NCBI GenBank assembly: GCA_018672315.1
Contig: CP076053.1
Span: 917,827-981,826 of the forward strand
Direction: 5' to 3'
DNA length: 64,000 nt
Origin: Nocardioidaceae bacterium
GTDB taxonomy: Bacteria; Actinomycetota; Actinomycetes; Propionibacteriales; Nocardioidaceae
The notes under the pieces are model-generated. The model was not told the origin of the DNA and ran no database searches. It saw nothing but the letters and a program-made list of their open reading frames with translations. The position numbers were made by a program, and so were the translations under genes. Below, one piece after another: positions 23,094 to 38,271 of the stretch. Every line of letters begins with the position of its first letter. The stretch's first letter is position 1.

Positions 23094-25337
<2,244 letters not shown>

Positions 25338-26142: not shown

Positions 26143-26628
26143 ATGCCCAGGACCATCGCGACCACCACCGACGTCGACCGGGAGTCGCTGCTCGACTTCG
26201 TGCGCCCCCGGCACAAGTTCGTGCTCATCACGCCGCGACGCGACGGCCGCACGCAGTCCTCACCCGTCACCGGTGGGGTCGACCCCGAGGGACGCCTCGT
26301 CGTCGCCTCCTACCCGCAGCGGGCCAAGGTGCGCAACGTGCGTCGGCACGGATCCGCCGCCGTGCTGGTTCTCTCCGACGACTTCGAGGACGCCTGGGTG
26401 CACGTCGACGGCCCGTGCGAGGTGCTCGACGCCGTCGGCGAGGACGGTCAGCCGGACGAGGCGGCGCTCGACGCGTTCGTCGACTACTTCCGGGCCGTGG
26501 CCGGCGAGCACGACGACTGGCAGGAGTACCGGCAGGCGATGGTCGCGCAGGGCAAGTCGCTGCTGCGGCTCACACCGGAGTCGTGGAGTCCGGTCGCGAC
26601 GGGCGGATTCCCGCCGGAGCTCGCCTGA
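26143..26628 (+). CDS. PPOX-class F420-dependent oxidoreductase-like protein
   Basis: 161-residue split-barrel flavin/deazaflavin-binding protein. Seen: KFVLITPRRDGRTQSSPVTG (strand that binds cofactor phosphate), YPQRAKVRNVRRHGSAAVLV, WVHVDGPCEVLD and the characteristic C-terminal TGGFPP. Actinobacterial members of this class mostly use coenzyme F420. Leaderless promoter. The last 59 bases overlap, tail to tail, the 3' end of the GNAT gene on the other strand, so transcripts of the two genes would be complementary there. Confidence 0.85.
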   Translation: MPRTIATTTDVDRESLLDFVRPRHKFVLITPRRDGRTQSSPVTGGVDPEGRLVVASYPQRAKVRNVRRHGSAAVLVLSDDFEDAWVHVDGPCEVLDAVGEDGQPDEAALDAFVDYFRAVAGEHDDWQEYRQAMVAQGKSLLRLTPESWSPVATGGFPPELA

Positions 26629-27787
26629 CCCGTGCCGCGGCCTCCCCGAGCGCGTGGGCGGTGCGGGCGCGAGCGGCCAGCCAGCGCGGCAGACGACGGA
26701 CGACCGACCGGCCGAGGGAACCCCTGGTGGAGACCGCGAGCGTCACCAGCTCACGCCGTCCCGAGGTCAAGGAGGTGCCGAGTCGGCTGTCGGCGTCGGT
26801 GCAGCTGTCGAGCACACGGACACCGTCCTCGAGCAGCGCGAAGCTCTCGACGGCCACGAGCCACCCCGGCGAGAACTCCGCGTACGCCTCGTCGTAGGTG
26901 GTCTTCCACCACGAGACCACGTCGCGGTCGCGCACCAGCGCGGCGACGGCCACCGGGCGCGAGCCGTCGTGCAGGGCCGGCAGATGCAGCACGCCGCGGT
27001 CCAGTGCCGCGAGGCACGCCTCGACGAAGAAGGCCGCCTCGGGCGGACGCACCGCCATCGCTCCGCCGTCCTCGCCCTTCCACCCGGCACGCTCGAGGGC
27101 GAGGAAGTGGGCCAGGTCGGCGCGTACGCGGGCACGGCGTGCGTCCGTGTCCTCGCCGGGGCGCCGGCGGGCGAGGTCCTCGACGACGAGCTGCGTGCCG
27201 ACCTTCGCGTCGAGTCGGCGACGCTGCCGACGCAGCTCGCGACGGCGCTTGGAGGAGAGGTCGACGTGCAGCCTCTCGCCGTCGCGGGCGCTGGAGAGTC
27301 CGCGGTCGGTGCGGCGTACGACGACACCGTCCTGGCCGAGTCGATCGGCCACCGCCAGCACCTGCTCCGCGACGCCGGTGTCGACCTGCCGCATGACGAG
27401 CCAGCGGTCCCCGGCGGTCGCGACGAGCCCGAACAGCTCGGCCCAGTCCTCCTCCTCGGCGTCGGGGCTGATCAGGGGGGTGCCGAGGAACGCCTGCTCG
27501 TGCTCCCAGGTCGTGGCTCCGCGCACGGGGTGGTGCCACGGGCGGGTACGCAGCTGCAGCGGCACGAGGAGACGCCACCGCCCGCCCCGACTCACCACGG
27601 CCAGGCCGACCCGGTCGCGCGCGAGGTGGCGCAGGGCAGGGAGCAGCAGCTCGGGGGTGAGGAACACGTTGGGCACCTGGGCCCGCGCGGACAGCTCGCG
27701 CCACCGCCGCTGCGTCTCCGCGTCGTCCCGGGCACCGGGGTCGCAGGCGGTCAGCACCTCGGCGGGGGTCAGCAGCCGGGCGCTCAT
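26570..27787 (-). CDS. BioF2/CelD-type GNAT acyltransferase, copy 1
   Basis: 405 residues, Acetyltransf_6 (BioF2-like, COG5653) family, related to CelD and Fem-type transferases that use acyl-CoA or acyl-tRNA. Two GNAT-like halves: the N-terminal VFLTPELLLPALRHL and FLGTPLISPDA, a basic hinge KRRRELRRQRRRL, then LERAGWKGEDGGAM and WKTTYDEAYAEFSPG with VLDSCTDADS near the end. No membrane segment. ATG start with four-base overlap to copy 2 upstream. Shares the LExxGWK-xxDGGAM block with two other genes nearby, so it arose by duplication. Substrate unknown. Confidence 0.85.
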   Translation of the reverse strand: MSARLLTPAEVLTACDPGARDDAETQRRWRELSARAQVPNVFLTPELLLPALRHLARDRVGLAVVSRGGRWRLLVPLQLRTRPWHHPVRGATTWEHEQAFLGTPLISPDAEEEDWAELFGLVATAGDRWLVMRQVDTGVAEQVLAVADRLGQDGVVVRRTDRGLSSARDGERLHVDLSSKRRRELRRQRRRLDAKVGTQLVVEDLARRRPGEDTDARRARVRADLAHFLALERAGWKGEDGGAMAVRPPEAAFFVEACLAALDRGVLHLPALHDGSRPVAVAALVRDRDVVSWWKTTYDEAYAEFSPGWLVAVESFALLEDGVRVLDSCTDADSRLGTSLTSGRRELVTLAVSTRGSLGRSVVRRLPRWLAARARTAHALGEAAARVRRAPAGIRPSRPDSTTPV

Positions 27788-28899
27788 CGGCGTCCCAGTC
27801 GAGCGTCGAGCCGCAGCCGGAACTCGTGCCAGCGCGGGGCGGTGCGTACGGCGGCGTTGCCGGTCGCCGTGCCGAGACCGACCAGCAGCGTCGTGAGCGT
27901 ACGGCTGTCCTCGGTGAGCTGTGCGGCGAGCTGGTGGCCCGGCACCGTGCACGTGTCGAGCACCGAGGCGCCGCTCTCGGCGAAGGCGGTCAGGCTGCGC
28001 ACGGCGACCTGCACACCAGGCGTGCCGGAGGCGTACGCCTCGTCGTAGGCGATCTTCCACCAGTAGAAGGTGTGCGCGTCGTGCACGAGCAGCGCCATCG
28101 CCGCGATGGCGCCCTGCGGTCCCTGCACCGCCCAGGCCTGCAACGCCCCCCGCGCCGCGAGACCGTCGACCGACTCACGGAAGAACGTCGCCTCGTGGTG
28201 GTCGAGGGCCATCGCGCCGCCGTCGGGCGCCTTCCAGCCCGACGCCTCCAGGCTCAGGAAGGCCTCGGCCACTCGACCCGGGGTCCACCGGTCACCCACC
28301 AGCAGGTCGCGGACGACGGGCTCACCGCCGAGCTGGTCGCCCAGCCGGCGGAACCTGCGGCGCAGCTCGCGTCGCCGCTTGCCTGAGAGGACGCGGGTCA
28401 CCGGGTCGGAGTCCTCGTGCCGTCGGGCCATGGCGCGCTCATGGGTGAGCACGCGACGGGCGAGGGCGCCGCGTCGTGCCGCGGCGCGCTGCAGCTGCGC
28501 GGCGTGGTCGGCGTGGAGGAGGTGGGCGACCCACCACCGGGAGCCGAGTCCGGCGACCGCGTCGAGCAGGACGTCCCAGTGCTCCGGGGCCGCCTCGGGG
28601 TGGGCCAGGGGCGACCCGAAGGGCATCTGTCGGTGCTCGAGGGTCTGCGCCGCCGCGACCGGATGGCGGTAGAAGGGACGCCGTGCCTCCACCGGCACCG
28701 CGAGCATCCAGCGGCCGGCGTCGTCGCGCACCACGACCAGGCGGGTCCCCGACGTCGCGAGGTGTCGCAGGGCGGGCAGCAGCAGGTCGGGCCCGTGGAA
28801 GACGTTGCCGATGCTCGAGGTCTCACTCAGCGACCGCCACGCCAGCAGGTGGTCCGCGCTCACGTCCTCGGCGCGGAGCAGGAGGCTGTCGGGACTCAC
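27784..28899 (-). CDS. BioF2/CelD-type GNAT acyltransferase, copy 2
   Basis: 371 residues, same family and layout as copies 1 and 3: NVFHGPDLLLPALRHLA, FGSPLAHPEA, basic hinge KRRRELRRRFRRL, LEASGWKAPDGGAM, WWKIAYDEAYASGTPG and VLDTCTVPGHQ. The C-terminal arm is shorter than in copy 1. GTG at 28899 has AGGAG nine bases upstream; longer frames through the divergent glycosidase promoter are not credible. First gene of a two-gene unit with copy 1 (ATG overlaps its stop by four bases). Divergent from the secreted glycosidase (165 bases). Confidence 0.85.
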   Translation of the reverse strand: MSPDSLLLRAEDVSADHLLAWRSLSETSSIGNVFHGPDLLLPALRHLATSGTRLVVVRDDAGRWMLAVPVEARRPFYRHPVAAAQTLEHRQMPFGSPLAHPEAAPEHWDVLLDAVAGLGSRWWVAHLLHADHAAQLQRAAARRGALARRVLTHERAMARRHEDSDPVTRVLSGKRRRELRRRFRRLGDQLGGEPVVRDLLVGDRWTPGRVAEAFLSLEASGWKAPDGGAMALDHHEATFFRESVDGLAARGALQAWAVQGPQGAIAAMALLVHDAHTFYWWKIAYDEAYASGTPGVQVAVRSLTAFAESGASVLDTCTVPGHQLAAQLTEDSRTLTTLLVGLGTATGNAAVRTAPRWHEFRLRLDARLGRR

Positions 28900-29064
28900 G
28901 AGGCGACGCTCCTGGGAGGACTCGGGGGGCACACGGTCGTGCGGCGACCATTCTGGCGGCTGTCGTTGGCAGGCGCTGCAAGACTGGCCGCATCCTCCTC
29001 GAGGCCCCGGGGGCGGCACGCACCGGCGACCCCCACGGCCCTGTCCCACGGATCGGAGCAGCGA

Positions 29065-30153
29065 GTGAGACGGCTCACGGCCCTGCTCGGCGCGCTCGCC
29101 CTGCTCGTGGTCGGAGTGCTCGGCGTCCGCGCCCTCGCCTCCCCGACGACCGTGGCCGACGTCGGCTTCCCGCGCTGCGCGGGACCGATGGTCGGCGCGC
29201 AGGTCCACGCGATCTGGTCCGACGTGGACAGCGAGAGCCGCGCCGAGATCCTCGACGGGATGGTCGAGCTCGGGGTCCGCACGGTGCGCATCGACGTCTC
29301 CTGGGCACAGCTCGAGCCCGTGCAGTTCGAGTACGACCAGGAGGCCGTCGACCGGCTGCAGCGGGTCGTCGACCAGGTCACCGAGCGAGGTCTCGATCCG
29401 CTGGTGATGCTGTGGCTGACGCCGGGCTGGGCGAACAGCGACCGCGGCGAACGGGTGCCGCCCTCGGACCCGATCGCATACGGCCAGATCATGGCCTGGG
29501 CGGTGCAGCGATTCCCCGAGGTGCGCGACTGGCAGGTGTGGAACGAGCCGAACTCCGAGGACTTCCTCGTCGGGGCCGACCCGGTGGCGTACGCGGGTCT
29601 GCTCGAGGAGGCGTTCCACCAGGCGCACCGGGCCCGCGGTGACGTCCGCATCATCTTCGGTGGTACCTCCTACCAGGACACGAGCTGGATCGAGCAGGTG
29701 TACGCCGCGGGGGCCCACGGCCACTTCGACGTGATGTCGACCCACGCGTACCAGGCTGTCGGCGACGAGCCCCCTGAGCTCGAGGCGGCCTCCGGCGAGG
29801 ACTCGCAGTACCGCCTGCGCGGTGTCGAGGCCGTGCGCGAGCTGATGGTCGCGAACGGCGACGCCCGGGTCCCGGTGTGGTTCACCGAGTTCGGGTGGAG
29901 CGCCTTCGACAGCCCCGAGGACGCCACCGGCACCGACCGCGGGGTGACCGAGGCGGAGCAGGCGGACTACCTCGTCCGAGCCCTGCGGCTGATGCGCGAG
30001 GAGTACCCGTACGTGGAGCGTGCCTACTGGTACAACGCCCGCGACCGTGACTCCGGCGACGAGCGCATCGATTCCTTCGGGCTGCTGCGCCGCGACCTCA
30101 CGCCCAAGCCGGTCGCCGAGGCCCTCACGGACTACCTGCGCGGCTGCGGCTGA
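29065..30153 (+). CDS. Secreted or membrane-anchored clan-A glycoside hydrolase (GH5/GH39-like)
   Basis: 362 residues. An N-terminal signal or anchor (RRLTALLGALALLVVGVLGV) precedes a (beta/alpha)8 barrel. Acid/base Glu161 is in WQVWNEPNSEDF and nucleophile Glu275 in VWFTEFGWSA, the two strands that define clan A retaining glycosidases; THAYQ before it and AYWYNARDRDSGDE after it are usual for GH39/GH5-type barrels. It should cut beta-linked polysaccharide outside the membrane. GTG start with GGAG seven bases upstream. Placed between the GNAT pair and the JmjC gene, it is the only exported protein of the cassette and could trim the surface product. Substrate cannot be told. Confidence 0.82.
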   Translation: MRRLTALLGALALLVVGVLGVRALASPTTVADVGFPRCAGPMVGAQVHAIWSDVDSESRAEILDGMVELGVRTVRIDVSWAQLEPVQFEYDQEAVDRLQRVVDQVTERGLDPLVMLWLTPGWANSDRGERVPPSDPIAYGQIMAWAVQRFPEVRDWQVWNEPNSEDFLVGADPVAYAGLLEEAFHQAHRARGDVRIIFGGTSYQDTSWIEQVYAAGAHGHFDVMSTHAYQAVGDEPPELEAASGEDSQYRLRGVEAVRELMVANGDARVPVWFTEFGWSAFDSPEDATGTDRGVTEAEQADYLVRALRLMREEYPYVERAYWYNARDRDSGDERIDSFGLLRRDLTPKPVAEALTDYLRGCG

Positions 30154-30166
30154 GGGCCGGTCCGTC

Positions 30167-31006
30167 TCAGCGCACCACGCGCTTCGCGCGCTGCGCCAGG
30201 CGGAAGGAGCCGAGCTTGAGCCGGTCGACGCCGTTGCGGGCACCGGGCTCCTTCGGTGACATGCCGGTGCGTCGCACGTAGGAGTTGATGCGGTGCAGCA
30301 GCGCCTCGTCGGTGAGACCCTGGGTGTTCCAGGTGACCGACAGCGAGATGGAGGGCGCGGGCCCGTTCTTCACGATGTGCGGGGTGTACGGCGGCACGAA
30401 CACGCCGCGGCCCGGTGAGAGCGGGTGGTCGGTCCGCGTGGCGAGCGGGGCGTCGAGGTTGCGGTGGCCGCCGGCACGCAGGCGCTCCGCCTCGACCTGC
30501 CGGTCCTCCCGGTTGCGCCAGGTGCCGGTGGTCATCGTCTTCTCGCCCTGCACCTGGAGCAGCACGTTGTACTCCGGGTCGATGTGGGTCGGGGTGACCG
30601 AGCCGGGCGAGGACAGGAACACGAATCCCTCGCGGGAGATGGAGAGGTCCTCACCGGTGACCAGCGTCTCGATCTCGTCGAGGCACTCGTCGAGCAGGGC
30701 GGCGTAGCGCGGGTCCTGCTCGATGTTCTTCAGCACGGCCCAGGCGCCGTTCTCGGGGATCGTCATCACCAGGTCCCGGATCGGCATGTCGAGGCTGGGT
30801 GCGTTGCCGTCGGCGACCACGTCGGGCAGGTCACCGATGTTGTGCTCGACCGAGGACTCCGGCAGCGAGGCCGCGAGGTCCGCCAGGGCCTCCAGTGTCA
30901 GGAGCTCGTGGGAGGTCAGGTGGTGGTCGATCTCGTACGGCGACATGTCCGCGCCGGCGGCACGGAGCGCCTCCCGTGAGGTCTGGTCGAGCTGCAGCAG
31001 GGACAT
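30167..31006 (-). CDS. JmjC/cupin-type Fe(II) oxygenase
   Basis: 279 residues, cupin-like (JmjC-type) 2-oxoglutarate-dependent oxygenase fold. The iron facial triad is visible: His141 and Asp143 in TPTHIDPEYNVLLQVQG, and His210 in FVPPYTPHIVKNG. A helical first domain (1-120) precedes the double-stranded beta helix. No signal. ATG with GAGGAG upstream; follows GNAT copy 3 by 44 bases on the same strand, so the pair form an operon. In known systems such enzymes hydroxylate proteins, peptides or small molecules. Convergent with the glycosidase, 13 bases between the stops. Confidence 0.82.
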   Translation of the reverse strand: MSLLQLDQTSREALRAAGADMSPYEIDHHLTSHELLTLEALADLAASLPESSVEHNIGDLPDVVADGNAPSLDMPIRDLVMTIPENGAWAVLKNIEQDPRYAALLDECLDEIETLVTGEDLSISREGFVFLSSPGSVTPTHIDPEYNVLLQVQGEKTMTTGTWRNREDRQVEAERLRAGGHRNLDAPLATRTDHPLSPGRGVFVPPYTPHIVKNGPAPSISLSVTWNTQGLTDEALLHRINSYVRRTGMSPKEPGARNGVDRLKLGSFRLAQRAKRVVR

Positions 31007-31050
31007 GTGGATCTCCTCGAGACGTAGGGACGGAGCTGGTCGTGGGGGTG

Positions 31051-32283
31051 TCAGGCCTGGTGCCGGCCCCGGGGCCGGTCGGGCCGGTGCGTCCTGATGG
31101 CAACGAGCGCCCGCCGCGCACGGTCACGCAGGCGCAGCCAGGGCACCAGCGTGCCGACGGACACGGTGCCGCGGGCAGGCCCGAGGCCGACGGCGACGGT
31201 GGCGATCCGTCGACGGTCCGGGTGCAGCCGTTCGGCCATGTCGTGCCCGGGCTTGGCGCAGGAGTCGAGCACGTCGGCGCCGGAGTCGTGGAAGCTGCTG
31301 AAGCAGTCCAGGGTCAGCTGCACGCCGGGCGAGTAGGCGGACCAGCGCTCGTCGTACGCGATCTTCCACGTCGACACCGTCGCTCCGCTGCGAACGTTGA
31401 CGCCCATCGCGGCGGGACTCCCGTCCCCGACGCGAAGGCACAGCAGCTGCAGGTCACCGCGCGACGCCAGCGCGACGCAGGCCTCCTCGAAGAAGCGCGC
31501 CTGGTCGTCGTGGGAGGCCATGGCGCCGCCGTCGGCGCCCTTCCAGCCCTTCGCCTCCAGGTCGAGGAACTGGCGCGCGGCGTCGCGTACGTCATCCGCG
31601 CCCGCGCCCTCGGCGAGGTCGACGGTCTCCACGCCGTCGGCCTCGTCGCCGAGCCGGCGGCGGAGCCGACGCAGTTCCTTGCGGTTCTTGCCGGAGATCG
31701 TGAGGGTCGCGTAGTCGTTCGACTCCCGCCGTCGGGTGACGGCGCGTCGGTGGTCGTCGATGCGACGCGTGGGGAGACCCAGCCGCGCCGCCGCCTGCTC
31801 GAGCCGTCGGGCGCAGGACCCGTCGAGGTCGGTGGCGAGCCAGGCGGCCGCGCCGGTGCCCGCGACCGCCCGGACCAGGGCGGACCACTCGGCGTCGGTC
31901 GCGTCGGGCAGCACCAGGGGGGACCCGAGGAACGCCTGGCTGTGCTGCCAGGTCCCACGCATCCTCACCGGGTGACGCCACGGACGCGACGGACTCGCCA
32001 GGGGGACGGCCAGCACCCATCGACGTCCGTCCTCCTCCCCGTGGTCGTCGCGCTCGACGACGAGCAGCTCGACGCCGGCGGCGTCGTCGAGGAGCCGCCA
32101 CGCCGGCAGGAGCATGTCGGGGCCGAAGAACACGTTCGTGCAGGAGGAGACGGCCGCCTCCTCCGCGAGGCGGCGCCACAGGCGATGCTCCCTCTCGCCG
32201 ATCTCCTCGACGGTGAGCACCCGGGCCGCCACGCCCACGGGCGGTCCGACGGCGCTGACAGCGCCGACGAGCAGGTGGCTCAC
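31051..32283 (-). CDS. BioF2/CelD-type GNAT acyltransferase, copy 3
   Basis: 410 residues, third member of the local Acetyltransf_6 set: TNVFFGPDMLLPAWRLLDD, AFLGSPLVLPDA, hinge KNRKELRRLRRRL, LEAKGWKGADGGAM, STWKIAYDERWSAYSPG and VLDSCAKPGHDM. It is closer to copy 2 in the PGH motif and to copy 1 in the FLG(T/S)PL motif. Its N-terminus is about 20 residues longer than the others and hydrophobic. GTG start with GGAG six bases upstream. Lead gene of the pair with the JmjC oxygenase. Confidence 0.85.
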   Translation of the reverse strand: MSHLLVGAVSAVGPPVGVAARVLTVEEIGEREHRLWRRLAEEAAVSSCTNVFFGPDMLLPAWRLLDDAAGVELLVVERDDHGEEDGRRWVLAVPLASPSRPWRHPVRMRGTWQHSQAFLGSPLVLPDATDAEWSALVRAVAGTGAAAWLATDLDGSCARRLEQAAARLGLPTRRIDDHRRAVTRRRESNDYATLTISGKNRKELRRLRRRLGDEADGVETVDLAEGAGADDVRDAARQFLDLEAKGWKGADGGAMASHDDQARFFEEACVALASRGDLQLLCLRVGDGSPAAMGVNVRSGATVSTWKIAYDERWSAYSPGVQLTLDCFSSFHDSGADVLDSCAKPGHDMAERLHPDRRRIATVAVGLGPARGTVSVGTLVPWLRLRDRARRALVAIRTHRPDRPRGRHQA

Positions 32284-32463: not shown

Positions 32464-32469
32464 CGTCGG

Positions 32470-32552
32470 TGGCAGGTGAAGGATTCGAACCTTCGAAGGC
32501 AAAAGCCGACGGATTTACAGTCCGCTCCCATTGGCCGCTCGGGCAACCTGCC
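32470..32552 (-). tRNA. tRNA-Tyr (anticodon GTA)
   Basis: 83 bases on the minus strand including the discriminator A. Acceptor arm GGCAGGT pairs with ACCTGCC; the anticodon loop reads CTGTAAA; a long variable arm marks the class II tRNA expected for bacterial tyrosine; the T arm has GGTTCGAATCC. The encoded 3' end continues A-CC-G, so full CCA is added after transcription. Single gene. Confidence 0.97.
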
Positions 32553-33496: not shown

Positions 33497-35851
33497 TCAG
33501 CGCAGTGACACCGTCGCCGGGAAGCCCGGGTAGGGCGAGGCGCCGGCTCGCGTCGGGTCGACGTCGTCGGGCCATGCGGCCACGGTCGCCTGCCGACCGG
33601 AGACGTCCACGTCGACGATGCCGTAGCCCTCGTTGAGGCGGCCGCGCTGGCCGTACACGCCGGTGCCGCCGTAGGCACGCTCGTACGCCGACCGCGTCGT
33701 GCTCGGCTGCACGATCGCGGCGACGCGGACGGCGTTGCCGAACGCGTCGGTCCACCGGTCGGGCAGCCGGCGTCGACCGCCCGGCTCGAACCACCGCTGG
33801 AACCCCGCCCCGACCGCGGGCGACGCGAACTGCCACGGGCCCCCGTCGGGGTGCAGGTGCTGCACCAGCGACCCCATGTGCTGGTCCCCCGCCACCATGA
33901 GCACGCCGTGGCCGGCGAGCACGTCGATGGCGCGGTCCCGCGCCGGGCGGGGCCACCCCCCGGAGTCCTTGTCGGGGTCGGGTCGCCCGTCGACCCCGGT
34001 CTGCACGCACGCGTACACGGTCTGGCTCAGCATCACCTTGGGCCGCGACGAACCGCTCACCCACTGCGCGAGGAAGCGCTCCTGCGCCGCACCGAGCATG
34101 TCCAGCTGGGTGTCGGGGCGCGGGTCGCTCGGGGCCGACTTGAAGGTGCGGTCCTCCACGATCGCGAGGTCGACGCCGCCGTAGGTGAACGAGGCGTAGT
34201 ACGGCCGCACCCCGTCGCCGACGGGTGTGTCGTCGGCCGGGGGAGGGTTGTGCCCGCACTGCATCTGCGTCAGCGCGTTGACCCAGTCGATGCTGCGGGT
34301 GAAGCCGCCGGACGCCGGCCCCCGCGGCGCGCGTACGCCACCTGCTCCCCACAGGTTCGGCTGGTAGACGTCGTGGTCGTCGACCAGCACCACCGTGGGG
34401 ATGCGGCGGGTCAGCTCCCCGAACGCCTGGCACCACAGCAGGTAGCGGCCCATCACGTCGAGCAGGTCCGCGTCCTCCGGCTCGGCACCGGCCGGGGTGT
34501 CCTCGTAGAACTGGTCGCCGTGCGCGACGAGCAGGTCGGGCCGCTGGACGGCCAGCCCCGCGACCGTGCCGGCGAAGGGGAACCAGAGGTTCTGCGGGGA
34601 GTACAGACCGATCCGGCGCTCGCCGGGCAGGCGCGGACGCACACCGAGGATGCCGCGGGTGGCGAGGTCGACCAGCCGGAACGTCGCCCGGGCGCACGAG
34701 ATGCTGCCGAGCCGCAGCGACCCGCGGGGCTCGGCGGGCACCGTGCCCTCGTACGAGGCACCGGGGGTGCCCTCGTAGCCGGTCGCCACGACCCGGAAGT
34801 CGGTCGCGGACGCGCTCGGCCACACCACGTCGAAGCGCGCACAGAAGCCGGGCTCGACCGGGCTGGTCGCGACGGGCAGCCAGCCGCCGAGCGCGCGGCG
34901 CTCGAGGCGCACGGGACCCGCGTGGTCGGGGTCGACGGGCGTCAGCTGGGCGGTGAGCCGCAGCCGCCCGGAGGTGCGTGTGAAGAGCGTCGACACGATC
35001 GGACCGACGCCGCGGTCGGGGTGCCGTGCGACACCACGTCCCCGGGCGGTGAAGTCGCTGAACCAGTGCCTGGCGCCGGACCCGTCGAGCTCGCTGGAGA
35101 CGAGGCCGAGCCCGCCGCGCACCGCTCCCCGGGGCACGGTGGTGGTCAGCCGGGAGAGGACCCTCCCGCCGGCGGCGTCGCGCGCGGTGATCACCAGGCG
35201 TACGCGCCGCGCGCCCGTGGGCAGCACCTGCACCTGCAGACGCACCCGCTCCCCCGTACGCCGCGACCGTCCCGCGGTGCCGGTGGCGAGCACGGGATAG
35301 CTCAGCGGGTCCACGGCCCCGCGCCCACGCCGGCGGTCGGTGGCCTCGCGACGGTGGTCGCGCAGGCGTACGCGCCCGTCGGCCTCGTACGTCGCGAACA
35401 GCCCCCCGCCCGTGCCCGACGCGGGACCCACGAGCGCGCGGGCGCGGGGATCGAGCCCCCGCGTGCCGGTGCCGAGGAGCAGCCCGGAGAACCCGCGGCC
35501 GCGCTGCAGGGTGCCGGTGACCACCGAGACGGTCGCCCGGCCCCCGGTGAGGTCTTCGGTGAGCCGGTTCACCACGCGGCCGGTCCGCCGGCGGGCGGGT
35601 GCGTGCTGCTCGATCCGCCCGTCGACGGCGAGCCAGTCACCGGGGCGCACCGACCACCAGGACCGGCCGAGCCAGACCATCGGCGGGGTGCTCCCGGCAG
35701 CCGCAGCGGCGGGGCTCCGCAGCCCAGCCTGCGCGAGCGGGCTCAGCGTCGTGCCGGCGAGGGCGGCACCGGAGGCGGCGAGCAGCCGCCGCCGACCGAG
35801 CAAGTACTGCCACCAGACGGCGGGGTCCCGCGGGGGCGCAGTCGTCGTCAC
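33497..35851 (-). CDS. Tat-exported PhoD-family phosphatase, copy 1
   Basis: 784 residues. Twin-arginine signal GRRRLLAASGAALAGTTL near residue 20, then about 270 residues of beta-rich domain (LGTGTRGLDPRARALVG, TYEADGRVRLRD), a PhoD N-domain, and the metallophosphatase core: AHGDQFYEDTP, LVDDHDVYQPNLWG and GDQHMGSLVQH, which supply the metal ligands. PhoD enzymes are Ca/Fe-dependent phosphodiesterase-phosphomonoesterases that release phosphate outside the cell. GTG at 35851 is chosen because TACCCT sits six bases upstream and it gives the same length as copy 2. A start at 35920 (four-base overlap with copy 2's stop) is possible but puts the Tat motif 43 residues in. Confidence 0.88.
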   Translation of the reverse strand: MTTTAPPRDPAVWWQYLLGRRRLLAASGAALAGTTLSPLAQAGLRSPAAAAAGSTPPMVWLGRSWWSVRPGDWLAVDGRIEQHAPARRRTGRVVNRLTEDLTGGRATVSVVTGTLQRGRGFSGLLLGTGTRGLDPRARALVGPASGTGGGLFATYEADGRVRLRDHRREATDRRRGRGAVDPLSYPVLATGTAGRSRRTGERVRLQVQVLPTGARRVRLVITARDAAGGRVLSRLTTTVPRGAVRGGLGLVSSELDGSGARHWFSDFTARGRGVARHPDRGVGPIVSTLFTRTSGRLRLTAQLTPVDPDHAGPVRLERRALGGWLPVATSPVEPGFCARFDVVWPSASATDFRVVATGYEGTPGASYEGTVPAEPRGSLRLGSISCARATFRLVDLATRGILGVRPRLPGERRIGLYSPQNLWFPFAGTVAGLAVQRPDLLVAHGDQFYEDTPAGAEPEDADLLDVMGRYLLWCQAFGELTRRIPTVVLVDDHDVYQPNLWGAGGVRAPRGPASGGFTRSIDWVNALTQMQCGHNPPPADDTPVGDGVRPYYASFTYGGVDLAIVEDRTFKSAPSDPRPDTQLDMLGAAQERFLAQWVSGSSRPKVMLSQTVYACVQTGVDGRPDPDKDSGGWPRPARDRAIDVLAGHGVLMVAGDQHMGSLVQHLHPDGGPWQFASPAVGAGFQRWFEPGGRRRLPDRWTDAFGNAVRVAAIVQPSTTRSAYERAYGGTGVYGQRGRLNEGYGIVDVDVSGRQATVAAWPDDVDPTRAGASPYPGFPATVSLR

Positions 35852-35857
35852 GGGGCC

Positions 35858-35863
35858 AGGGTA
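35858..35863 (-). promoter_or_regulatory. Possible -10 hexamer of an internal leaderless promoter (phoD copy 1)
   Basis: TACCCT on the minus strand six bases before the GTG at 35851, between the two phoD genes. Confidence 0.35.
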
Positions 35864-35916
35864 GGCAACGGATCGGCGGCGTACGCCGTTCTTGCGGGGT
35901 CCACGCCGAGGGGACG

Positions 35917-38271
35917 TCACGCGTCGGGCTCAGCGGGCTCCTCGAGCGACACCGTGATCGGGAAGCCCGGGTAGGGACTGCCAGACCTCGCCCCGCGAGC
36001 CGGCGGCCAGATGGCGAGCTCGGCGCGCTGGGACGTCGGGTCGATCCGGACGACGCCGTAGCCCCGACGCTGGAATCGCTGCTGCCCGTAGGCGCCGGCC
36101 AGGCCCGGGAAGGCCTGCGCGTACTCCCGGCGGGTGATGACGGGTTGGACGACCGCGAGGACCCGGACGCGGTTGCCGAAGGCGTCGGTCCAGGGCCCGG
36201 TGACGTCGTCCTGGTCGCCACGCGGCTCGAACCAGCGCTGGAACGTGGTGGCGACCGCGGGTGCCGCGAACTGGTAGGGCCCTCCCGCAGGGTGCTGGTG
36301 ACGAAGCACCGCGCCGCTGTGCTGGTCCCCGGCGACCATGAGCACCCGGCGACCCGCGAGCGAGTCGATGACGCGGTCTCGCGCGGGCTTGGGCCAGCCG
36401 TTGGCGTCCTGGTCGGGCACCGGCTCGGAGAACGCGTCGGTGTTCAGGGCGACGAAGCTGGTCTGGCTGAGCACCACCTTCGGCCGCCCCGAGTCATCGG
36501 CTGCCCACCGCGCGAGCATCTGCTCCTGGTCGGCACCGAGCTGCGGCAGCTCGACCTCGGGTCGCGGGTCGCGCGGGCTCGCCTTGAACTTGCGGTCCTC
36601 GAGCAGCGCGAAGTCGACTCCGCCGTAGGTGAAGGTCGTGTAGTACGTCCGCAGCCCGTCCCCGACGGTGCGTCGTCGGTACGGCACCGGGTTGTGCCCG
36701 CACTGCATGGTCTGGAGCCGATTCACCCACGACGTGCTGCGGATGTAGCCGCCGTCCGCGTGGTCCTCGACGCGTACGCCCCCGGCTCCCCACAGATTGG
36801 GCTGGTAGACGTCGTGGTCATCGACCAGGACGACCGTGGGCGTGCGTCGTGTGACGTCGCGAAAGGCCCAGCACCACAGCAGGTAGCGACCCAGGATGTC
36901 GAAGAGCTGCCCGTCCTCACGCTGGTAGCGGGTCGGTGAGCTCTCGTAGTACTGGTCGCCGTGGGCGACGACCAGGTCCGGTCGCAGCAGCACGAGCGGG
37001 TCCGCCACGTCGTCGAACGGGAACCACACGTTGCGCCGCGAGTAGAGACCGAGGAACTGCTCGCCGGGACGGGTGGGAGCACCACTGCTGGGGCCGTCGA
37101 CGGGGCGGTGCGTCGCCTTGGCGCACGACATGCTGCCGATCACCACGTCGCGGCCGACGGGCTCGGCGGGCACCACCCCGTACAGCGGCCTCGCGGGGTA
37201 GGAGCTCAACCGCAGCCGGAAGATCGAATCCGCGCTGCTGCCCCACCCCGGCACGTCGAAGCGAGCGATGAACGCCGGGAGCACCGGGCTCGTGGCGACC
37301 TTCTGCCACGTGTCGCCGACCTTGCGCTCCAGCGTGACGACGCCCGAGCGTGACGGATCGACCGGCATCAGCTGAGCGGTCATGCGCAGCCTGCCGCCCA
37401 CGCAGGTGAACAGGGTGCTCACGAGAGGTCCGAGCCTGCGGCGGGCGTCGACGTCGACGCCGGGGCCCTGCGCCCTGAAGTCCTCGAACCAGTGCCGCGC
37501 CCCTGAGCGCGACCGGTCGGAGGAGACGAGCGCGACGCCGCCGAGCACGCGGCGCCTCGGCACCACCGTCCGCAGGACGCTCAGCACCCTGTCGCGCCGT
37601 ACGTCCCGGGCCGTCACCACCAGCCGGCGACGTCCGCCGCCGGCCCGGCGTATGCGCACCAGGAGCTCGACGTCCTCCGCACGGGATCGGCGGTGGCGCA
37701 CCCGACGGTTCCCGGTCGCAAGCACCTCGTACGCGAACTGAGCCCGCTCGTCGGTGTGGTCGCGCAGGCGCACCCGGCCGTCCGACTCGTAGGTGGCCAT
37801 GAGGCCGCCGCCGACGCCGGACGCGCTGCCGAGCACGGCACGTGCCCGGGTGTCCTCACCGCGGACGCCGGTGCCGAGGACGATGCCGGAGAACCCGGCA
37901 CCCGTGCGCGCCGTCCCCGTGCGCACACGCAGCACGGCGGGGCCGCCGGTCAGCTCCGCGCTGAGGTTGCTCGCGATGCGTCCGCGACGGTCCGCCGCCG
38001 GCGCCACGTTCTCGATGCGGCCTCCGCGGGCCACCCAGTCACCCGGTCGGTTGGTCCACCAGTCCGGTCCCAGCCAGTGCTGCGTGACCGGGCCTCCGAC
38101 CGCGCCGGCCGCCGACGGAGCGAACGTCGCGGCGGCACCGCGTGCGTACACGGGTCGGGACGAGCCGTCGACGAGAGGCACGAAGGTCGTCAGACCCACT
38201 GCCGTCAGACCACGCACGACCGCGCGCCGCCCGAGAGGCAGCGAGGCGGCCGCTGCTCCACGCTCCGACAT
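35917..38271 (-). CDS. Tat-exported PhoD-family phosphatase, copy 2
   Basis: 784 residues, clearly paralogous to copy 1: signal GRRAVVRGLTAVGLTTFV near residue 14, the same extra N-terminal domain (VLGTGVRGEDTRARAVLG, TYESDGRVRLRD), then AHGDQYYESSP, LVDDHDVYQPNLWG and GDQHSGAVLRH. Typical PhoD is about 500-560 residues, so both copies carry roughly 250 extra. ATG start. Leads a two-gene unit; divergent from the amidohydrolase. Phosphate starvation control is likely for this family, but no clear Pho box was seen. Confidence 0.9.
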   Translation of the reverse strand: MSERGAAAASLPLGRRAVVRGLTAVGLTTFVPLVDGSSRPVYARGAAATFAPSAAGAVGGPVTQHWLGPDWWTNRPGDWVARGGRIENVAPAADRRGRIASNLSAELTGGPAVLRVRTGTARTGAGFSGIVLGTGVRGEDTRARAVLGSASGVGGGLMATYESDGRVRLRDHTDERAQFAYEVLATGNRRVRHRRSRAEDVELLVRIRRAGGGRRRLVVTARDVRRDRVLSVLRTVVPRRRVLGGVALVSSDRSRSGARHWFEDFRAQGPGVDVDARRRLGPLVSTLFTCVGGRLRMTAQLMPVDPSRSGVVTLERKVGDTWQKVATSPVLPAFIARFDVPGWGSSADSIFRLRLSSYPARPLYGVVPAEPVGRDVVIGSMSCAKATHRPVDGPSSGAPTRPGEQFLGLYSRRNVWFPFDDVADPLVLLRPDLVVAHGDQYYESSPTRYQREDGQLFDILGRYLLWCWAFRDVTRRTPTVVLVDDHDVYQPNLWGAGGVRVEDHADGGYIRSTSWVNRLQTMQCGHNPVPYRRRTVGDGLRTYYTTFTYGGVDFALLEDRKFKASPRDPRPEVELPQLGADQEQMLARWAADDSGRPKVVLSQTSFVALNTDAFSEPVPDQDANGWPKPARDRVIDSLAGRRVLMVAGDQHSGAVLRHQHPAGGPYQFAAPAVATTFQRWFEPRGDQDDVTGPWTDAFGNRVRVLAVVQPVITRREYAQAFPGLAGAYGQQRFQRRGYGVVRIDPTSQRAELAIWPPARGARSGSPYPGFPITVSLEEPAEPDA

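Follow-up and report, generated by a model that had tools for sequence, protein, structure and literature searches.

A conserved GNAT-JmjC oxygenase pair, associated with exopolysaccharide gene clusters in its relatives, lies in a five-gene cassette of a Nocardioidaceae bacterium

The genes described here lie in a window of 64,000 nucleotides (positions 917,827 to 981,826 of contig CP076053.1), the whole stretch of DNA that was analysed from a Nocardioidaceae bacterium. Open reading frames and Pfam matches agree with the content proposed by a first-pass annotation made from the sequence: three full-length Acetyltransf_6 paralogs (GNAT1 to GNAT3), a clan-A glycosidase, and a JmjC-type oxygenase (Table 1). 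All five genes have plausible starts and ribosome-binding sites in the window sequence. The GNAT and oxygenase genes form two operons, as had been proposed, with GNAT2 and GNAT1 overlapping by 4 bases (ATGA), GNAT3 and the oxygenase separated by 44 bases, and the glycosidase between them on the opposite strand. The divergent region between GNAT2 and the glycosidase is a possible shared promoter region. In addition, alignment of the three GNATs recovers the shared blocks reported earlier (LExxGWKxxDGGAMA, SxKxRxELRR..RR, and VLD[ST]C), and the cassette indeed contains no glycosyltransferase of its own. A single N-terminal hydrophobic segment occurs in the glycosidase, so this protein, annotated as exported, would be either membrane-anchored or exported. 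The other four proteins have no such segment, and GNAT3 and the oxygenase look like soluble cytosolic proteins.

Table 1. Features of the cassette, with positions in the window and the evidence for each assignment.
Feature	Positions	Strand	Description	Evidence
GNAT1	26570-27787	-	Acetyltransf_6 (BioF2-type) protein, 405 aa; lineage-specific duplicate	ORF, Pfam, alignment, tree
GNAT2	27784-28896	-	Acetyltransf_6 protein, 370 aa	ORF, Pfam, alignment, tree
Intergenic region	28897-29064	.	Divergent region between GNAT2 and glycosidase, 168 bases	Coordinates only
Glycosidase	29065-30153	+	Membrane-anchored or exported clan-A (GH5/GH39-like) glycosidase, 362 aa	Pfam, motifs
JmjC	30167-31006	-	JmjC-type Fe(II)/2OG oxygenase, 279 aa	Pfam, predicted structure, active-site alignment
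GNAT3	31051-32283	-	Acetyltransf_6 protein, 410 aa; retained partner of JmjC in relatives	Pfam, tree, model

Ordinary genes flank the cassette, with an F420-dependent PPOX protein and a RibD_C protein on one side and a tRNA-Tyr and a YajQ-like gene on the other, and no exopolysaccharide (EPS) machinery was seen near it within the window. Two other features of the surroundings were recorded. Adjoining the cassette are two tandem PhoD-like phosphatase genes with a 4-base overlap (33497-38271, minus strand), and at 23094-25337 (plus strand) there is a 747-aa protein whose sole match is a sub-threshold alpha-amylase (E 0.005).

The three GNATs match Acetyltransf_6 (PF13480) with E values of 3e-17, 7e-16, and 7e-23; their scores are 63.5, 59.1, and 81.8 bits, where the family cut-off is 22. 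Their kinship extends well beyond the common motifs, with pairwise identities of about 40-46% over the whole length. Seven Acetyltransf_6 genes occur in the 3.6 Mb of the source genome, so a group of three inside 6 kb cannot be put down to chance; these three are duplicates. In our tree, GNAT1-3 form one clade (support 100/96) that is sister to the partner GNATs of Nocardioides, a grouping from which we conclude that GNAT1 and GNAT2 are, by sequence, duplicates of a GNAT3-like gene that arose in this lineage. GNAT1 lacks the PGH element that its two paralogs have after the VLDSC block. A fourth relative of these GNATs, at 1.88 Mb in the same genome (L026:8586-10654), directly precedes an APH-like kinase gene.

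The structural model of GNAT3 (pLDDT 90.3) predicts a double-GNAT fold, and its top PDB matches are aminoacyl-tRNA-dependent transferases of the FemABX type and their like (Sba18/Sbb17, MprF, FemX, and PGS; TM about 0.5 on the query). A PDB sequence search with the GNAT profiles returned weak RimI matches only, and the Fem likeness therefore rests on fold comparison. Consistent with this likeness, the CoA pyrophosphate motif [QR]xxGx[GA] had no match in GNAT1, GNAT2, or GNAT3. The resemblance in fold makes hydroxy-aminoacylation possible. A contrary point comes from the alignment, in which a YK lysine that is conserved in the GNATs of EPS clusters, and that may correspond to Lys305 of FemX, is absent from GNAT1-3; in the window's group, an element of the type D-x-C-x-x-P-x-H takes its place. 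Two other leads were discarded. The NCBIfam label of BspF crotonyltransferase was rejected because the GNATs reach 92-129 bits where the cut-off demands 775. The tRNA-Tyr beside GNAT3 (32468-32552) was considered as the dedicated tRNA of a tRNA-dependent enzyme and is treated as a coincidence, since among 15 loci of relatives that were scanned, only one (L054, tRNA-Leu) has a tRNA near the pair; the tRNA of another (L069) is several kilobases off.

The oxygenase matches Pfam JmjC_2 just below the cut-off of that family. Its structural model (pLDDT 91.7) resembles YxbC (E 8.6e-12), NO66, FIH, and TYW5. H141, D143, and H210 align with the metal residues H199, D201, and H279 of FIH, and K156 aligns with its 2OG residue, K214. 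Across 20 sequences the three metal positions are invariant and position 156 is K or R. Because the active-site residues are intact by this alignment, the window's protein is probably an active hydroxylase. It shares the fold, metal triad, and 2OG lysine with YxbC, NO66, FIH, and YcfD; however, most of these are longer and their genomic context differs. The solved ribosomal oxygenases (YcfD/NO66), for example, which have C-terminal dimerisation and winged-helix parts, comprise 385-460 residues compared to 279 here.

Our results reveal that the oxygenase and its GNAT are kept together. A contig search with the single JmjC sequence gave no matches, and relatives were retrieved with a JmjC profile; all loci were gathered by JmjC similarity alone, except L078, which was found through its GNAT. 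An Acetyltransf_6 gene neighbors the oxygenase in 31 of 31 distinct loci, the window included, and the two are contiguous in all but one (L074, with one gene between them). By comparison, a gene picked at random would have a GNAT at 3 kb or less in about 1.4% of cases. As many of these loci are syntenic, the independent observations number fewer than 31, and we count roughly a dozen distinct neighborhoods. Ten loci, including the window, belong to the window's clade, whose oxygenases (about 45-64% identical) come from Nocardioides kribbensis, N. cremeus, N. litoris, several other genomes of the family, and Frankiales and Gaiellaceae MAGs. The other 21 form a distant clade (about 30-38%) from many Nocardioides, other Actinomycetota, Dormibacterota, and one Chloroflexi MAG. 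The GNAT precedes the oxygenase in tandem in the window's clade, often with a 4-base overlap, and the two genes mostly converge in the distant clade. Between the clades, the partner GNATs share about 20% identity. One JmjC gene that is more distant and falls in neither clade (L024) lacks a GNAT neighbor.

The first-pass annotation had read the five genes as one system and looked to conserved neighborhoods for support. That expectation was borne out for GNAT3 and the oxygenase and failed for the rest, which varies across relatives. The close pair is present in eight of 342 genomes of the family, and the complete five-gene set was found in none of the 341 genomes other than the source. A search for a close relative with the complete cassette was unsuccessful, as the genus is represented by one genome and the remaining family genomes lack the cassette. 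Nor does any other genome among the 342 carry extra copies like GNAT2 and GNAT1 beside the pair. The conserved system is a two-gene module, accompanied here by two lineage-specific GNAT copies and by a neighboring glycosidase of an EPS-linked family.

The surroundings of the relatives point to EPS. In the distant clade, 18 of the 19 loci with enough flanking sequence have Wzx and Wzy together with deacetylase or glycosyltransferase genes, and these lie in Actinomycetota and Dormibacterota; the remaining locus (L073) carries one deacetylase gene and one gene resembling a glycosyltransferase. Wzx is also matched on a short contig from Chloroflexi (L070). Within the window's clade, the pair of N. 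litoris (L053) adjoins Wzx, glycosyltransferase, Wzy, deacetylase, Wzz, and glycosidase genes, while the pairs of the other eight relatives stand alone. With only one of nine close relatives at an EPS cluster, the EPS link of this clade consists of that locus, co-occurrence, and homology. Pairs that mostly stand alone are what would be expected if the pair modified a macromolecule, with the oxygenase hydroxylating a protein or tRNA in the manner of FIH, NO66, YcfD, or TYW5, the GNAT acylating the same target, and the EPS clusters being an incidental location. Protein hydroxylases and TYW5 are also among the best fold matches of the oxygenase. Yet a core ribosome or tRNA modification would not be so patchily distributed (8 of 342 genomes), and the distant clade is nearly always found within EPS clusters; we regard a macromolecular target as rather unlikely.

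The glycosidase adds a second line of evidence. It has a Pfam Cellulase/GH39 match, and its two catalytic glutamates, in the motifs WNExN and TExGWS, are invariant across nine sequences. With 36-43% identity to the EPS-cluster enzymes, it is by sequence their paralog, and the source genome has only three copies of this family. In other genomes no glycosidase is adjacent to the close pair; that of N. litoris lies about 9 kb from one. Among the 342 genomes, 23 have the glycosidase family, and they include six of the eight genomes with the close pair (p = 1.2e-6 with no correction for relatedness). Since a number of these genomes are close relatives, the true weight is below that value. N. kribbensis (G133) has the pair and no glycosidase match at E<=1e-40. 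The earlier suggestion that the cassette tailors a surface glycan is reasonable on these grounds, with comparative support from the EPS clusters of relatives and from the glycosidase family.

How far the system extends is a separate question. The cassette could be a loose assembly in which GNAT3 and the oxygenase are one module, and GNAT1, GNAT2, and the glycosidase came to lie nearby through duplication and chance, with unrelated roles. The five-gene set is seen here alone, the glycosidase is on the opposite strand, and GNAT2 and GNAT1 form an operon of their own, apart from that of the pair. Nevertheless, GNAT1 and GNAT2 come from the same GNAT clade as GNAT3, and the glycosidase belongs to a family of EPS clusters with so few copies in the genome, which leaves such an assembly a distinct but minority possibility. 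It is compatible with an EPS role for the pair itself.

Recurring in other bacteria mostly inside gene clusters for sugar coats, the pair probably adds to the coat a chemical group that has yet to be described. We somewhat favor the interpretation that GNAT3 and the oxygenase are a cytosolic two-enzyme module that would acylate a building block of a Wzx/Wzy-type EPS and hydroxylate the product. The GNAT would most likely put an acyl group, perhaps an amino acid, on a sugar precursor linked to a nucleotide or a lipid, at an amine or a hydroxyl. With O2, Fe(II), and 2-oxoglutarate, the oxygenase would most likely hydroxylate either the sugar or the acyl group that it carries. GNAT1 and GNAT2 probably serve other acceptors or donors, and the membrane-anchored, EPS-type glycosidase would probably trim or release the same polymer, with the remaining EPS machinery located elsewhere in the genome. 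We infer the substrate, the order of the reactions, and the action of the window's genes on the genome's own EPS. That genome has the same machinery as the EPS clusters of relatives, with glycosyltransferases, Wzy, a deacetylase, Wzz, and a glycosidase at 99-107 kb, and its Wzx lies apart at 2.57 Mb. As an observation in its own right, the genes of this one apparent pathway are scattered: beyond the main cluster at 99-107 kb, Wzx is accompanied by another gene at its own site, and an EPS-type GNAT lies at 3.27 Mb.

Alternatively, the pair could tailor a small-molecule or peptide natural product unrelated to a surface polymer. 2OG oxygenases also occur in natural-product pathways. Fem-like GNATs have been found there as well (PMC12945691), but scaffold-building genes (NRPS, PKS, or RiPP) were not recognized around the window or in the neighborhoods of relatives, albeit without a dedicated search, and we find this alternative improbable.

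The nearest studied precedent is HfsK of the Caulobacter crescentus holdfast, a soluble GNAT that among solved structures most closely resembles Fem proteins (PMC5362036). It too has three paralogs in one genome, and its homologs are genetically coupled to EPS synthesis (PMC5362036), a coupling seen here for the distant-clade partners and for N. litoris. Its proposed role is to acylate amines that the deacetylase HfsH has exposed, and it is controlled by c-di-GMP, which binds through a C-terminal extension; unlike GNAT3, it has no JmjC partner described in the parts of that report considered here (PMC5362036). The wps-3 EPS cluster of Actinoplanes missouriensis combines Wzx/Wzy/Wzz, a polysaccharide deacetylase, a BioF2-like acetyltransferase, and oxygenase genes, but its oxygenases are an FAD monooxygenase and an intradiol dioxygenase rather than JmjC proteins (PMC13390465). 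Our literature search, which covered open-licence papers, turned up no account of a JmjC oxygenase in an EPS pathway. Orf11, a Fem-like GNAT that uses Gly-tRNA to make glycylthricin from streptothrisamine, shows that enzymes of this kind can aminoacylate an amino-sugar compound (PMC12945691). More speculatively, and with little confidence, GNAT-JmjC pairs across several phyla may form an undescribed module that transfers amino acids from aminoacyl-tRNA to EPS precursors and hydroxylates them. In that scheme, the clusters' own deacetylase, whose start seems to lack a signal peptide, would expose the amine. HfsK and other EPS-linked GNATs are known to affect adhesion. Strict pairing with an oxygenase would limit the chemistry to acylation and hydroxylation, and it points to specific genes and products to look for.

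Two further arrangements were observed near relatives of these GNATs. In one distant-clade locus, the EPS flippase is a protein of 916 aa with a fused N-terminal APH phosphotransferase-like domain (L064:13633-16383, the same protein as L020:4006-6756), and other Nocardioides loci of that clade have proteins of similar length in this position. A second recurring group consists of a GNAT, an ATP-grasp-like protein, and a kinase-like protein (L036:8148-11665, L039:8271-11788, L079:7647-11263, and L075:4879-9710). The L075 version has an extra Acetyltransf_6 gene and lies directly beside a Wzx EPS cluster, and in three genomes the group adjoins genes of the trehalose/glycogen type.
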